A stretch of DNA of 64,000 nucleotides from Burkholderia anthina (GTDB lineage: Bacteria > Pseudomonadota > Gammaproteobacteria > Burkholderiales > Burkholderiaceae). Of the stretch, positions 19,723-37,790 are shown piece by piece. The notes under the pieces were generated by a model. That model was not told where the DNA came from. It saw only the letters and a list, made by a program, of their open reading frames with translations, and did not search any database. The translations under genes were made by a program, and so were the position numbers. The stretch is taken from assembly GCF_001547525.1 (NCBI RefSeq), contig NZ_CM003768.1:3472001-3536000 (forward strand), read 5' to 3'. Position 1 is the stretch's first letter, and the number at the start of each line of letters is the position of its first letter.

Positions 19723-20282
19723 AGCGTGATTCCTTTGGCCTTGAGCGCTTGCGCCAGCGTGTGAGTGGCCCGCGAGCAGTGCGTCTTGACGCTGCCCTCG
19801 GAGCACCCCATTGCGGCGGCAGTCTCGGCGACATCCATATCTTCCCAATAACGCATCAGGAACGCTTCCCGTTGACGCGCCGGAAGCTTCTGGATTTCTT
19901 CGTCGATCAGGGCCAGAACCTGCTCTCGTTCGAGGCGGTGCTCGCTGCTCTCGACGCCCGCGTTGTCGTCCGCGGATTCGAGCGTTTCGAGCGGGTCGAA
20001 GTCTTCGTCGTCGGTGCTGTTCAGCGACGAGAACAGCGTGACCCACGTGTTGCGGACCTTCTGCCGCCGGAACCAGTCGTGGATCGCGTTCTGCAGGATC
20101 CGCTGAAAGAGCAGCGGCAGCTCGGCCGACGGCCGGTCGCCGTACTTTTCCGCGAGCTTGATCATCGCGTCCTGCACGATGTCGAGCGATGCATCGTCGT
20201 CACGCACGGCGTACGCGGCCTGCTTGAACGCGCGCCTTTCGACGCCCGCCAGAAAGTCGGCGAGTTCCTTGTCTGATGCCAT
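19719..20282 (-). CDS. RNA polymerase sigma factor, ECF-like
   Basis: A 187-aa sigma-70 family protein. Region 2 lies in the first part (RAFKQAAYAVRDDDASLDIVQDAM and QNAIHDWFRRQKVR, positions roughly 15-80). An acidic linker follows (STDDEDFDPLETLESADD). Region 4 is LPARQREAFLMRYWEDM through GCSEGSVKTHCSRATHTL, about 133-180, a clear helix-turn-helix. There is no region 1.1 or 3, so it is ECF-like. The ATG at 20282 gives MASDKELADFLAGVE, the usual N-terminus. It is the first gene of a four-gene minus-strand operon (sigma, DUF3619, DUF3106, RDD). Confidence 0.9.
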   Translation of the reverse strand: MASDKELADFLAGVERRAFKQAAYAVRDDDASLDIVQDAMIKLAEKYGDRPSAELPLLFQRILQNAIHDWFRRQKVRNTWVTLFSSLNSTDDEDFDPLETLESADDNAGVESSEHRLEREQVLALIDEEIQKLPARQREAFLMRYWEDMDVAETAAAMGCSEGSVKTHCSRATHTLAQALKAKGITL

Positions 20283-20637
20283 TCCGTGAAGGTATGCGCT
20301 GCGGCCCGCTGCGTGGTGAAAAAGGTCGAAAAATTTCGTAAAACCCGCGGATGCTATCAAATTTTCATGCGGCTTGGCACCGGATCGGGCGCCGCACGTT
20401 GCGCGCGAACCGCGCCGGCCGGGCGCCGGGCGGCGCGCATGATGCGCTGCGGGATATTTTTCTTGACGAGCCAATCACGACCCGCTATCGTCAGCGATTC
20501 GCAACATGAAGTGATGGTCTCATTTGAGGCTGGCCCAAGAAGCCCGCCCTTCAAACTGGACGCGCCGCTTGAACCCGAGCCACAAGCCCGGCAGAGAGCA
20601 CCCGATCAATTTTTTGCCGAAAATTCGAAAGGTCGAA
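20283..20637. other. Intergenic region between the sigma-factor operon and ilvB
   Basis: This is a 355-bp divergent spacer. It holds the ilvB promoter candidate at 20463-20491, an AT-rich patch at 20315-20370 where the minus-strand sigma operon promoter should lie, and a roughly 140-nt ilvB leader. I looked for a leucine/valine/isoleucine-rich leader peptide in this leader and found none. Confidence 0.6.
20463..20491 (+). promoter_or_regulatory. Sigma-70 promoter candidate for ilvBNC
   Basis: TTGACG, a 17-bp spacer and TATCGT. The start point would be near 20498, giving a leader of about 140 nt before ilvB. Confidence 0.6.
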
Positions 20638-22401
20638 ATGAACATGCCCAGCGCGGAATTCTCCACGTCGGAACCCCTTTCCCCTCCCGATAGCGACTCC
20701 ATCGGCGGCACCGTGCTCATGAAGGCACTGGCCGACGAAAACGTCGAATTCATCTGGGGCTACCCCGGCGGCTCGGTTCTCTATATCTACGACGAGCTGT
20801 ACAAGCAGGACAAGATTCAGCACGTGCTGGTGCGCCATGAACAGGCGGCCGTGCACGCAGCCGATGCGTATGCGCGCTCCACCGGCAATGTCGGCGTCTG
20901 TCTCGTGACGTCGGGCCCCGGTGTCACCAACGCGGTGACCGGCATCGCGACGGCCTACATGGATTCGATCCCGATGGTCGTGATCAGCGGCCAGGTGCCG
21001 ACGGCCGCGATCGGCCAGGATGCCTTCCAGGAATGCGACACCGTGGGCATCACGCGTCCGTGCGTGAAGCACAACTTCCTCGTGAAGGACGTGCGCGACC
21101 TCGCGGAAACCGTCAAGAAGGCGTTCTATATCGCCCGCACCGGCCGTCCGGGCCCCGTGCTGATCGACATCCCGAAGGACATCTCGAAGACGCCGTGCCA
21201 GTACGAGCCGATCAAGAGTGTGTCGCTGCGTTCGTACAACCCCGTCACGAAGGGCCATTCGGGCCAGATCCGCAAGGCCGTGTCGCTGCTGCTGTCGGCC
21301 AAGCGTCCGTACATCTACACGGGTGGCGGCATCATCCTCGCCGACGCGTCGCGTGAGCTGAACCAGTTCGCGGACCTGCTCGGCTACCCGGTCACGAACA
21401 CGCTGATGGGCCTCGGCGGCTATCGCGCGTCGGACAGGAAATTCCTCGGCATGCTCGGCATGCACGGCACCTACGAAGCGAACATGGCGATGCAGCACTG
21501 CGACGTGCTGATCGCGATCGGCGCCCGCTTCGACGACCGCGTGATCGGCGACCCGGCGCACTTCGCGTCGCGCCCGCGCAAGATCATTCACATCGACATC
21601 GACCCGTCGTCGATCTCGAAGCGCGTGAAGGTCGACATCCCGATCGTCGGCGACGTGAAGGAAGTGCTGAAGGAACTGATCGAGCAACTGCAGACGGCCG
21701 AGCACGGCCCCGACACCGAGGCGCTCGCGCAATGGTGGAAGGACATCGAGGGCTGGCGCGCGAAGGACTGCCTGAAGTACGACCGCGAAAGCGAGATCAT
21801 CAAGCCGCAGTACGTGGTCGAGAAGGCGTGGGAGCTGACGGACGGCAATGCGTTCGTGTGCTCGGACGTCGGCCAGCACCAGATGTGGGCCGCGCAGTTC
21901 TACCGTTTCAACAAGCCGCGTCGCTGGATCAACTCCGGCGGCCTCGGCACGATGGGCTTCGGCCTGCCGGCGGCGATGGGCGTGAAGATGGCCCATCCGG
22001 ACGACGACGTGCTGTGCATCACGGGCGAAGGCTCGATCCAGATGTGCATCCAGGAACTGTCGACCTGCCTGCAGTACGACACGCCCGTGAAGATCATTTC
22101 GCTGAACAACCGCTATCTCGGCATGGTCCGCCAGTGGCAGCAGATCGAATACAGCAAGCGCTATTCGCATTCGTACATGGATGCGCTGCCCGATTTCGTG
22201 AAGCTCGCCGAAGCGTACGGCCACGTCGGCATGCGGATCGAAAAGACTTCGGATGTGGAGCCGGCGCTGAAGGAAGCGCTGCGCCTGAAGGACCGCACCG
22301 TGTTTCTCGACTTCCAGACCGATCCGACCGAAAACGTCTGGCCGATGGTACAGGCCGGCAAGGGCATCACCGAGATGCTGCTCGGATCGGAAGATCTGTA
22401 A
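20638..22401 (+). CDS. ilvB: Acetolactate synthase large subunit
   Basis: This is the 587-aa catalytic subunit of acetohydroxyacid synthase, which condenses two pyruvates (or pyruvate and 2-oxobutyrate) in valine, leucine and isoleucine synthesis. The catalytic glutamate is near residue 68 (VRHEQAAVHAADAYAR). The TPP/Mg motif runs from GEGSIQ (463) to NNRYLG (490). The C-terminus FQTDPTENVWPMVQAGKG is family-typical. The ATG at 20638 was picked because the frame above it is a poor match to the family; a second ATG lies two codons later. ilvN and ilvC follow, forming the usual ilvBNC operon. Confidence 0.97.
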   Translation: MNMPSAEFSTSEPLSPPDSDSIGGTVLMKALADENVEFIWGYPGGSVLYIYDELYKQDKIQHVLVRHEQAAVHAADAYARSTGNVGVCLVTSGPGVTNAVTGIATAYMDSIPMVVISGQVPTAAIGQDAFQECDTVGITRPCVKHNFLVKDVRDLAETVKKAFYIARTGRPGPVLIDIPKDISKTPCQYEPIKSVSLRSYNPVTKGHSGQIRKAVSLLLSAKRPYIYTGGGIILADASRELNQFADLLGYPVTNTLMGLGGYRASDRKFLGMLGMHGTYEANMAMQHCDVLIAIGARFDDRVIGDPAHFASRPRKIIHIDIDPSSISKRVKVDIPIVGDVKEVLKELIEQLQTAEHGPDTEALAQWWKDIEGWRAKDCLKYDRESEIIKPQYVVEKAWELTDGNAFVCSDVGQHQMWAAQFYRFNKPRRWINSGGLGTMGFGLPAAMGVKMAHPDDDVLCITGEGSIQMCIQELSTCLQYDTPVKIISLNNRYLGMVRQWQQIEYSKRYSHSYMDALPDFVKLAEAYGHVGMRIEKTSDVEPALKEALRLKDRTVFLDFQTDPTENVWPMVQAGKGITEMLLGSEDL

Positions 22402-25791: not shown

Positions 25792-25819
25792 AAACGGCGG
25801 CCTCGGGGGCCGCCGTTTT
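25792..25819 (+). terminator. Intrinsic terminator after pssA
   Basis: A stem of about 11 bp (25792-25802 with 25808-25818), a TCGGG loop and a short T-run. It isolates psd-pssA from the leuA promoter that follows about 50 bp later. Confidence 0.8.
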
Positions 25820-25871: not shown

Positions 25872-25900
25872 TTGCGCGGTCAACGGAATGTCGCTATAGT
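25872..25900 (+). promoter_or_regulatory. Sigma-70 promoter of leuA
   Basis: TTGCGC, a 17-bp spacer and TATAGT. The expected start (about 25906-25908) coincides with the ATG of the leucine-rich leader peptide. Confidence 0.75.
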
Positions 25901-25907
25901 CTTTGGC

Positions 25908-25988
25908 ATGACTGTATTTCCCCGCCTCTCCCTCCTTCTAGCCGGTGCGCCGCTACGCGCGCTAGCTTCGGCGCGCCTGCCGCGCTGA
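25908..25988 (+). CDS. Putative leucine-rich leuA leader peptide
   Basis: A 26-codon open frame, MTVFPRLSLLLAGAPLRALA then SARLPR-stop, lies between the leuA promoter and leuA. Seven of 26 residues are leucine, including a run of three, and three of them use CTA, a codon that is very rare in this GC-rich genome. Such composition is the hallmark of leader peptides in transcription attenuators, where ribosome stalling on scarce Leu-tRNA lets transcription continue. The ATG lies at or within about two bases of the predicted transcript start, so it would be read from an almost leaderless mRNA. No Shine-Dalgarno is seen. Confidence 0.7.
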   Translation: MTVFPRLSLLLAGAPLRALASARLPR

Positions 25989-26023
25989 CCGTTCTCGCCC
26001 TCCGTCAAGCCTCGTCTGTTGTT

Positions 26024-26060
26024 GAGCGTCGCCAGCGGTGGCGCGATCTCGTTACGTTTG
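26024..26060 (+). promoter_or_regulatory. Candidate attenuator hairpin before leuA
   Basis: A stem of about ten pairs with small bulges (arms 26024-26034 and 26039-26050, GCGG loop) lies 36 bp after the leader stop and is followed by the moderately T-rich GTTACGTTTG. An alternative hairpin can form inside the leader (25957-25962 with 25971-25976). It is less U-rich than classic attenuators. Confidence 0.45.
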
Positions 26061-26091
26061 ACTTCCGTATAAAAGAGCCCTGGAGCCCCCC

Positions 26092-27636
26092 ATGACAGAC
26101 AAGCTGATCATTTTCGATACGACGTTGCGTGACGGCGAGCAATCGCCCGGCGCGTCGATGACGAAAGAAGAGAAAATCCGCATCGCGAAGCACCTCGAGC
26201 GGATGAAGGTCGACGTGATCGAGGCCGGCTTCGCCGCGAGCTCGAACGGCGATTTCGACGCGATCCACACGATCGCCGGGCTCGTGAAGGACAGCACGAT
26301 CTGCTCGCTGGCGCGCGCCAACGACAAGGACATCCAGCGCGCGGCCGACGCGCTGAAGCCCGCCAACAGCTTCCGGATCCACACGTTCATCGCGACGTCG
26401 CCGCTGCACATGGAGAAGAAGCTGCGGATGACGCCGGATCAAGTGTTCGAGCAGGCGCGCCTCGCCGTGCGTTTCGCGCGCAAGTTCACCGACAACGTCG
26501 AGTTCTCGCCGGAAGACGGCAGCCGCTCGGACATGGATTTCCTGTGCCGCGTGCTGGAAGCCGTGATCGCCGAAGGTGCGACGACGATCAATATCGCCGA
26601 CACGGTCGGCTACGGCGTGCCGGAGCTCTACGGCAACCTCGTGAAGACGCTGCGCGAACGCATTCCGAACTCGGACAAGGCGATCTTCTCGGTGCACTGC
26701 CATAACGACCTCGGGATGGCGGTCGCGAACTCGCTCGCCGGCGTGAAGATCGGCGGCGCGCGTCAGGTCGAATGCACGATCAACGGTCTGGGCGAGCGCG
26801 CGGGCAACACGTCGCTCGAAGAAATCGTGATGGCCGTGAAGACCCGCAAGGACTACTTCGGTCTCGACGTCGGCATCGACACGTCGCAGATCGTGCCGAC
26901 GTCGAAGCTCGTGTCGCAGATCACCGGCTTCGTCGTGCAGCCGAACAAGGCGGTGGTCGGCGCGAACGCGTTCGCGCACGCGTCGGGCATTCACCAGGAC
27001 GGCGTGCTGAAGGCGCGCGACACCTACGAGATCATGCGCGCGGAAGACGTGGGCTGGACCGCGAACAAGATCGTGCTCGGCAAGCTGTCGGGCCGCAACG
27101 CGTTCAAGCAGCGGCTGCAGGAGCTCGGCGTATCGCTCGACAGCGAAGCCGAACTGAATGCCGCGTTCATGCGCTTCAAGGATCTGGCCGACCGCAAGGC
27201 GGAGATCTTCGACGAGGACATCATCGCGATCGTGTCCGAGGAATCGGCGCTCGCGCAGGAGCAGGAGCACTTCAAGTTCGTGTCGCTGTCGCAGCGTTCG
27301 GAAACGGGCGAGCAGCCGCAGGCGAAGGTCGTGTTCGCGGTCGAGGGCAAGGAAGTGACCGGCGAGGCGCGCGGCAACGGCCCGGTCGATGCGACGTTCA
27401 ATGCGATCGAAGGTGAAGTCGGCAGCGGCTCCGAGCTGCTGCTGTACTCGGTGAACGCGATCACGACCGGCACGCAGGCGCAGGGCGAAGTGACGGTTCG
27501 GCTGTCGAAGAGCGGGCGGATCGTCAACGGCGTCGGCACCGATCCGGATATCGTCGCCGCGTCCGCGAAGGCGTACATTTCCGCGCTGAACAAGCTGCAC
27601 TCGAAGGACGACAAGGTCAATCCGCAGCGCTCGTAA
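26092..27636 (+). CDS. leuA: 2-isopropylmalate synthase
   Basis: A 514-aa type I 2-isopropylmalate synthase, which condenses acetyl-CoA with 2-oxoisovalerate in the first committed step of leucine synthesis. The HMGL-like TIM-barrel domain opens with [17 protein letters not shown] and contains the metal-binding [18 protein letters not shown]. The regulatory LeuA dimer domain (about 390-510), where leucine binds, ends with [23 protein letters not shown] precedes the ATG. The gene has its own promoter and a leucine-rich leader, and it ends at a terminator shared with the convergent SulP gene. Confidence 0.97.
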
Positions 27637-37705: not shown

Positions 37706-37790
37706 GCCGACGTGGTGAAATTGGTAGACACGCTATCTTGAGGGGGTAGTGGCGAAAGCTGTGCGAGTTCGAGTCTCGCCGTCGGCACCA
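37706..37790 (+). tRNA. tRNA-Leu(GAG)
   Basis: An 85-nt class II tRNA with encoded CCA. The acceptor stem GCCGACG pairs with CGTCGGC. The anticodon stem CTATC/GGTAG encloses the loop TTGAGGG, giving anticodon GAG (reads CUC and CUU). A long variable arm (TGGCGAAAGCTGTGC region) and a T-loop GTTCGAGTC identify it as tRNA-Leu. It sits between secG and nuoA with its own promoter and terminator. Confidence 0.97.

Follow-up and report, generated by a model that had tools for sequence, protein, structure and literature searches.

A leucine-rich, predicted leaderless leader frame before leuA in Burkholderia and its relatives as a candidate leucine attenuator

Attenuation is a textbook mechanism that was worked out in enterobacteria, and the leuL leader of Escherichia coli and Salmonella (Leu_leader in Rfam) carries rare CTA codons. 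The leu operon attenuation of enterobacteria has been reviewed (PMC6123439), and that review also speaks of putative leader peptides in various Gram-negative species, citing Vitreschak et al. 2004. LeuL of Campylobacter jejuni and other Epsilonproteobacteria is a leucine leader with rare codons (PMC3847290), leuA of Streptomyces lividans has a leaderless leader, LeuL1 (MRFGLLLLSCRGEGL), that lacks a typical terminator (PMC8079986), and trpL of Sinorhizobium meliloti is a leaderless leader ORF whose peptide and RNA act in trans (PMC7298713). The literature matches listed, as far as their accessible portions go, include no leuA leader peptide of betaproteobacteria. Since the review speaks of putative leaders in Gram-negative species, an earlier prediction is possible, and its likeliest place is Vitreschak et al. 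2004. Searched for these terms, the main texts of two start-site papers, on Burkholderia cenocepacia (PMC4603805) and Cupriavidus metallidurans (PMC7563307), mention neither leuA nor attenuation.

We analysed a 64,000-nucleotide stretch of Burkholderia anthina DNA (the window), and the elements described below from the hairpin after pssA to leuA lie on its + strand. The gene order is ilvB-ilvH-ilvC-psd-pssA-leuA, with names assigned from sequence and gene order; this includes leuA (26092..27636, 514 amino acids), which we take to encode 2-isopropylmalate synthase. Six Burkholderia records (L001-L006) matched the first 203 residues of the window LeuA at 97 to 100%, and a Shine-Dalgarno sequence, GGAG, can be read before the gene (26082..26085). 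Three prime of pssA, a terminator-like hairpin, AAACGGCGGCC-TCGGG-GGCCGCCGTTT followed by TCATTTGCCCCTTTTTTT (25792..25818), was read directly in the sequence; it is absent from the list of the mechanical terminator scan. This hairpin and a T run close the unit upstream of leuA, which suggests that leuA forms its own transcription unit. The first-pass annotation had placed a good sigma-70 promoter before leuA, and its coordinates, the -10 element TATAGT (25895..25900) and the 17-nt spacer all stood, but the -35 element TTGCGC (25872..25877), part of a TTGC(G/A)-type sequence conserved here in the genus loci, is weak by consensus. Because it matches TTGACA at only three of six positions, the mechanical promoter scan found no promoter (0) for leuA in the window. 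The arrangement TATADT, 7 nt and ATG occurs once in the 64-kb window, both strands counted, where shuffles predict 0.07 occurrences. By eye, no leader was seen before ilvB at 20100-20720. A tRNA-Leu with anticodon GAG (37706-37790) was the sole tRNA gene detected in this stretch, and the window's own genome holds distant leuA-like matches (about 30% identity) at G000:C3:1136109-1137674 and G000:C1:2910321-2911256.

Seven nucleotides after the -10 element, an ATG (25908-25910) without a Shine-Dalgarno sequence opens a Leu-rich leader frame of 26 codons (25908..25988, with the stop TGA at 25986-25988), which rests on genus conservation, the spacing test described below and codon counts. The peptide, MTVFPRLSLLLAGAPLRALASARLPR, contains seven leucines, three of them consecutive (codons 9-11), and CTA codons stand at 25938, 25953 and 25962 (codons 11, 16 and 19). 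CTA makes up three of the seven Leu codons of the leader versus none of the 166 in six flanking window genes. The earlier description of an ATG at the expected transcript start, a 26-codon frame, seven leucines and three CTA codons was confirmed at every coordinate, and the observation itself, a short Leu-rich frame where the RNA should start, is real. A leuA match was found in all 65 genus genomes searched; the 65th (G025) was left out, as it holds only a 3' leuA fragment and no 5' end, and the leader frame lies exactly 7 nt after the -10 element in 64 of the 64 loci with a readable leuA 5' end. Among the 63 genus leaders of 26 codons, CTA was present at codon 16 in 63, at codon 11 in 56 and at codon 19 in 58, and the minor-allele cells at the three codon positions numbered 54, 43 and 101, with 13, 13 and 16 variable columns. 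Chance would give far less conservation than is seen for the leader frame, the place where it starts and its CTA codons. Rfam gave no match to Leu_leader or to any other relevant family up to an E value of 1 between 24000 and 28000.

The position of the leader relative to the promoter was followed in 283 loci, with two that had short upstream DNA left out, and these loci provided 240 distinct regions with at least 300 nt upstream. The ORF was picked by its Leu content alone, regardless of the promoter. A Leu-rich ORF was found in 190 of the 240 distinct upstream regions and in 141 of 1,200 shuffled controls. The best -10 element lay 6 to 7 nt before the ATG in 161 of the 190 Leu-rich ORFs versus 1 of the 141 in shuffles, counts that overstate the number of events because related sequences are not independent. 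By set, this spacing was seen in 57 of 57 genus regions, 52 of 60 from the named loci L001-L080, 23 of 26 of the family picks (from 40 loci hand-picked among the 278 family genomes that matched leuA) and 29 of 47 in the order sample. A Shine-Dalgarno-like 4-mer preceded the leader in 2 of the 190 and was missing in the other 188. It is the position of the ATG relative to the -10 element that is conserved, beyond the peptide, and this gives the strongest support for a leaderless leader. From the -10 spacing and the missing Shine-Dalgarno sequence, the leader is predicted to be leaderless, and the counts strengthen what the first-pass annotation had supposed on this point.

The order sample came from the GTDB order Burkholderiales, where 130 of 150 genomes had a leuA match; 70 of the 130 loci were examined, the 30 best matches and 40 that were hand-picked to cover families, and one with almost no upstream DNA (L230) was kept in the denominator. 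Under a strict rule (a Leu-rich ORF with its ATG 5 to 8 nt after a -10-like hexamer), 36 of these 70 loci carried the leader versus 12 of 1,400 shuffles. Conservation of the leader frame in relatives, on which the annotation had let its reading stand or fall, was thus found both in the genus, at every one of the 64 loci, and in the order. The same leader design appeared in Trinickia, Caballeronia and part of Paraburkholderia, and Cupriavidus/Ralstonia, Comamonadaceae-type and Polynucleobacter-type loci carried other leader peptides at the same position. The share of CTA among leader Leu codons was 41 to 76% in the Burkholderia group, Cupriavidus/Ralstonia and the Comamonadaceae-type loci and only 7% in 32 other-family leaders, so that rare-codon sensing is not universal. 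In 34 other-family leaders, the stop codon varied (TAA in 19, TGA in 11 and TAG in 4) while the frame persisted, and the leader end was fixed at the nucleotide level, typically as CTG CTG CTG CGC NNN GCG CGC stop. Where the residues at this end are Arg, Ala and Arg, the codons were CGC in 25 of 25, GCG in 27 of 27 and CGC in 27 of 27 cases.

Some relatives kept the promoter without a Leu-rich leader, namely part of Paraburkholderia and Pandoraea. Paraburkholderia-like loci with the promoter and no Leu-rich leader by the rule used were L007, L008, L009, L018, L175-L180, L182-L184, L187, L189 and L192; the hairpin described below was missing in 10 of these 16 and kept in 6, which makes them a natural loss series. 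Three Pandoraea loci (L026, L028 and L029) showed an ORF of unrelated sequence at the leaderless position.

We consider it likely that this leaderless leader peptide serves as a leucine attenuator of leuA, and, judged from the sequence, the element most likely turns leuA down when leucine is plentiful. Going by the -10 spacing, RNA polymerase would start at or within 1 to 2 nt of the leader ATG and, with no Shine-Dalgarno sequence present, ribosomes would bind directly at the AUG. As long as charged Leu-tRNA is sufficient, they would reach the stop codon and cover it together with the next ~14 nt, which would hide a C-rich strand, let the hairpin at 26026-26044 form and bring transcription to an early stop. 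When leucine is short, ribosomes would stall on the rare CTA codons 11, 16 and 19, the competing strand would be free, and transcription would proceed into leuA. The stopping step presumed here for Burkholderia may be Rho-dependent rather than intrinsic. We infer the transcript start, the translation of the leader and its response to leucine. The proposal of the first-pass annotation that leuA is attenuated through a nearly leaderless transcript gained support from the conserved leader, the -10 spacing and the placement of Leu codons in two clades with clear terminators.

The Comamonadaceae-type, Cupriavidus/Ralstonia and Polynucleobacter-type loci have a true intrinsic terminator after the leader, and the end of the leader is complementary to the terminator's 5' arm. 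In 21 Comamonadaceae-type loci, the terminator is GCCCG...CGGGC followed by a U run, and its 5' arm can pair with the leader end GGGCGG (GGGCTGG in L065). For 10 Cupriavidus/Ralstonia loci, GGUCGGGAC in the leader matches CGCCCCGGCCUG in the terminator, and the Polynucleobacter-type loci carry a third leader/terminator sequence pair. This complementarity was modestly above that of dinucleotide shuffles, with mean z values, from loci that are not independent within one clade, of -2.07 (21 Comamonadaceae-type), -2.01 (10 Cupriavidus/Ralstonia) and -1.84 (4 Polynucleobacter-type). Sets outside the genus, here as in the masked folding, the post-stop composition and the Shine-Dalgarno pairing, were built wholly or partly knowing that a leader was present, and their counts concern leaders. 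Among Comamonadaceae-type loci, we also observed an apparent extended -10 element (TGTGNTANANT; among L048-L078) and, in 20 of 21, a leader stop TAG able to base-pair with the part of the leader around the CTA codons.

For the masked folding, the transcript was cut inside the terminator and the ribosome was masked in, at 31 loci of the Comamonadaceae-type and Cupriavidus/Ralstonia clades. When one or another Leu codon occupied the A site, the antiterminator reached at least 0.80 in 31 of 31 loci, and with the ribosome at the stop codon it fell below 0.5 in 29 (the exceptions, L066 and L073, were at 0.75 to 0.77). At the last Leu of the cluster, the second of the LL pair, it was at most 0.13 in 9 of the 10 Cupriavidus/Ralstonia loci, and without any ribosome it ranged from 0.00 to 0.96. 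The Leu codons are placed where stalling should matter in these two clear-terminator clades, and ribosomes stalled on them are predicted to cause antitermination there. What computation shows is that the frame, the place where it starts and its CTA codons are conserved, and that relatives with true terminators have a predicted fold switch, which appears only when the transcript is cut inside the terminator. Folding the full-length leaders at equilibrium was tried as a switch test and rejected: for five loci of the strong-terminator clades, it gave the terminator at every ribosome position tested and cannot show a switch. Since the terminator always wins at equilibrium, any switch would have to be kinetic, like that of the textbook attenuator.

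In the window, the candidate terminator is the hairpin GCGUCGCC-AGC-GGUGGCGC (26026..26044), identified by pattern and folding and followed by a poor U tract. The first-pass annotation had described a hairpin and T-rich sequence about 40 bp after the stop; the hairpin (GCGTCGCC-AGC-GGTGGCGC) does begin 38 nt past the leader stop, but the tail is poor in T, loosely T-rich at most. The one site reported by the terminator scan, 26038-26055, overlaps this hairpin, with 0.3 sites expected by chance. Within the Burkholderia group (124 distinct of 134 regions, L143 and L006 scored as hairpin negative), the hairpin was present in 99 of 101 leader-positive versus 6 of 23 leader-negative distinct upstream regions, and the losses of leader together with hairpin are probably few independent events. 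Between leader and hairpin, composition and folding mark a C-rich, G-poor tract (25989..26008) as a candidate antiterminator strand or Rho-loading site. Masked folding was applied to 76 of 78 Burkholderia-like sequences; L143 and L144, with a hairpin variant missed by the pattern, were left out. With a ribosome at the stop codon, the hairpin was favored in 52 of 76 sequences and not favored in 24 at footprints 14 and 16 (47 of 76 at footprint 12 and 62 of 76 at footprint 18), versus 1 of 76 without a ribosome and 1 of 76 with Leu stalls. The hairpin is favored mainly with a ribosome on the stop because in the other predicted folds its 3' arm is mostly taken up by the C-rich strand that follows the stop.

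This competing pairing was not above dinucleotide shuffles in the Burkholderia-like group (mean z of -0.55, 52 distinct sequences), and RNAalifold on 28 of 33 Burkholderia-like sequences (L185, L195, L204, L208 and L223 left out) gave five pairs, none of them covarying. Co-changes of GUUU/AAAC to GUUC/GAAC were seen by eye; RNAalifold gave no confirmation, and they were not counted. The Burkholderia antiterminator was rejected as a demonstrated helix, with pairing no better than that of a shuffled C-rich sequence and no covariation. The alternative hairpin pairing that the annotation suggested looking for is thus predicted in the 31 loci of two clades but stays at shuffle level in Burkholderia-like loci. 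Because of this pairing at shuffle level, the missing covariation and the T-poor tail, the stopping device of Burkholderia is poorly supported, while the sensor is well supported. In several Burkholderia-like loci, GUCUG(C/U) in the post-stop region (25989-26030) was seen by eye to be complementary to ACAGAC or GCAGAC in the leuA start region (26092-26105).

A Rho-dependent version of the attenuator is quite possible, although we would not call it probable. It would use the same leucine sensor; Rho would load on the C-rich, G-poor RNA right after the stop, and ribosomes stalled near the leader end would block the action of Rho or of its pause site. Rho loading sites are C-rich and G-poor in composition, and the C-rich tract after the Burkholderia leader stop makes Rho possible. 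C and G made up 52 and 16% of the first 20 nt after the stop in 49 distinct genus loci, and 48 and 8% in 42 other-family leaders; in two clades with intrinsic terminators, the values were 32 and 28% (Cupriavidus/Ralstonia) and 11 and 17% (Polynucleobacter-type). When the three terminator clades were pooled for comparison, Mann-Whitney tests on these nonindependent sequences gave 9e-8 for Burkholderia-like loci and 2e-8 for the other families. However, the Comamonadaceae-type loci, with their perfect terminators, are also C-rich after the stop (42% C and 15% G), which weakens the contrast, and composition is no proof of function. The Burkholderia hairpin, moreover, is kept together with the leader, and Rho would not need it. 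A filter for U-tract terminators was positive in 5 of 41 order-sample leaders, two of them Polynucleobacter-type, but this strict filter overlooked a short hairpin resembling a terminator that was seen by eye in L222. A structure for the other families was sought and rejected: for 33 aligned loci, RNAalifold returned just two pairs, and the post-stop folds were only slightly more stable than shuffles (mean z of -0.9). A motif CAATTCG recurs by eye about 10 to 35 nt past the leader stop, in many cases with GTAGTA or GCAGTAC behind it, for example in L221, L222, L229, L231 and L260. Only tentatively, and with more doubt than for Rho in the first place, we suggest that the order Burkholderiales (betaproteobacteria) may have inherited one leaderless Leu leader whose ancestral output was Rho dependent at the C-rich tract after the stop, and that at least three lineages (Comamonadaceae-type, Cupriavidus/Ralstonia and Polynucleobacter-type) later added different intrinsic terminators with 5' arms complementary to the leader end.

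That the promoter is simply constitutive and followed by a nonregulatory small ORF, or that the peptide works in trans, we regard as unlikely. Relatives that have the promoter without a Leu-rich frame (20 of the 23 leader-negative distinct upstream regions of the Burkholderia group) would fit such a reading, and a trans role is known for the leaderless leader peptide of S. meliloti (PMC7298713), but the conserved Leu codons, the rare CTA codons and the complementarity of leader and terminator in three clades argue against both, and a leader end fixed at the nucleotide level in 34 other-family leaders fits a role of the RNA better than one of the peptide. Least likely, and not supported by the tests here, is translational control like that of the actinobacterial LEU element, in which the leuA Shine-Dalgarno sequence would be hidden depending on ribosome position: actinobacterial leuA leaders likewise lack a clear terminator, and their run of Leu codons is proposed to bind the leuA Shine-Dalgarno sequence (PMC1262725 and PMC8079986), but complementarity to that region was no better than in shuffles (mean z of +1.45 for the leader and +0.56 for the post-stop part in the first 30 of 64 genus loci, and -0.32 to +0.31 in sets of 27 and 42 other loci), and its predicted accessibility was flat across ribosome positions (0.63, 0.63 and 0.64 in 30 genus loci).

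If leucine attenuation by a leaderless leader holds across much of the order, this would suggest that initiation on a bare AUG can reach the speed and regularity that the timing of a kinetic switch demands, and the leucine synthesis of a very large bacterial group would stand under a sensor. The stopping device differs among sister clades, so these clades offer a natural series for how an attenuator switches its mode of termination. Like leuL of E. coli and Salmonella, the Burkholderia locus has a short Leu-containing ORF before leuA, with a ribosome whose position is proposed to decide the fold; in contrast to leuL, the Burkholderia ORF is predicted to be leaderless, its sequence and hairpins are unrelated, and there is no canonical U-tract terminator. 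It shares with LeuL1 of S. lividans a Leu leader before leuA that is leaderless (predicted here) and, in Burkholderia, the lack of a typical terminator, but it belongs to another phylum and has another peptide, no pairing of the Leu run with a Shine-Dalgarno sequence was found here, and several relatives have true terminators. With trpL of S. meliloti, it has in common a proteobacterial attenuator with a leader ORF at the transcript 5' end (again predicted here), whereas the amino acid is leucine here and tryptophan in trpL. On the best reading, leaderless leucine attenuation before leuA belongs to a known type of mechanism, here with a broad range.
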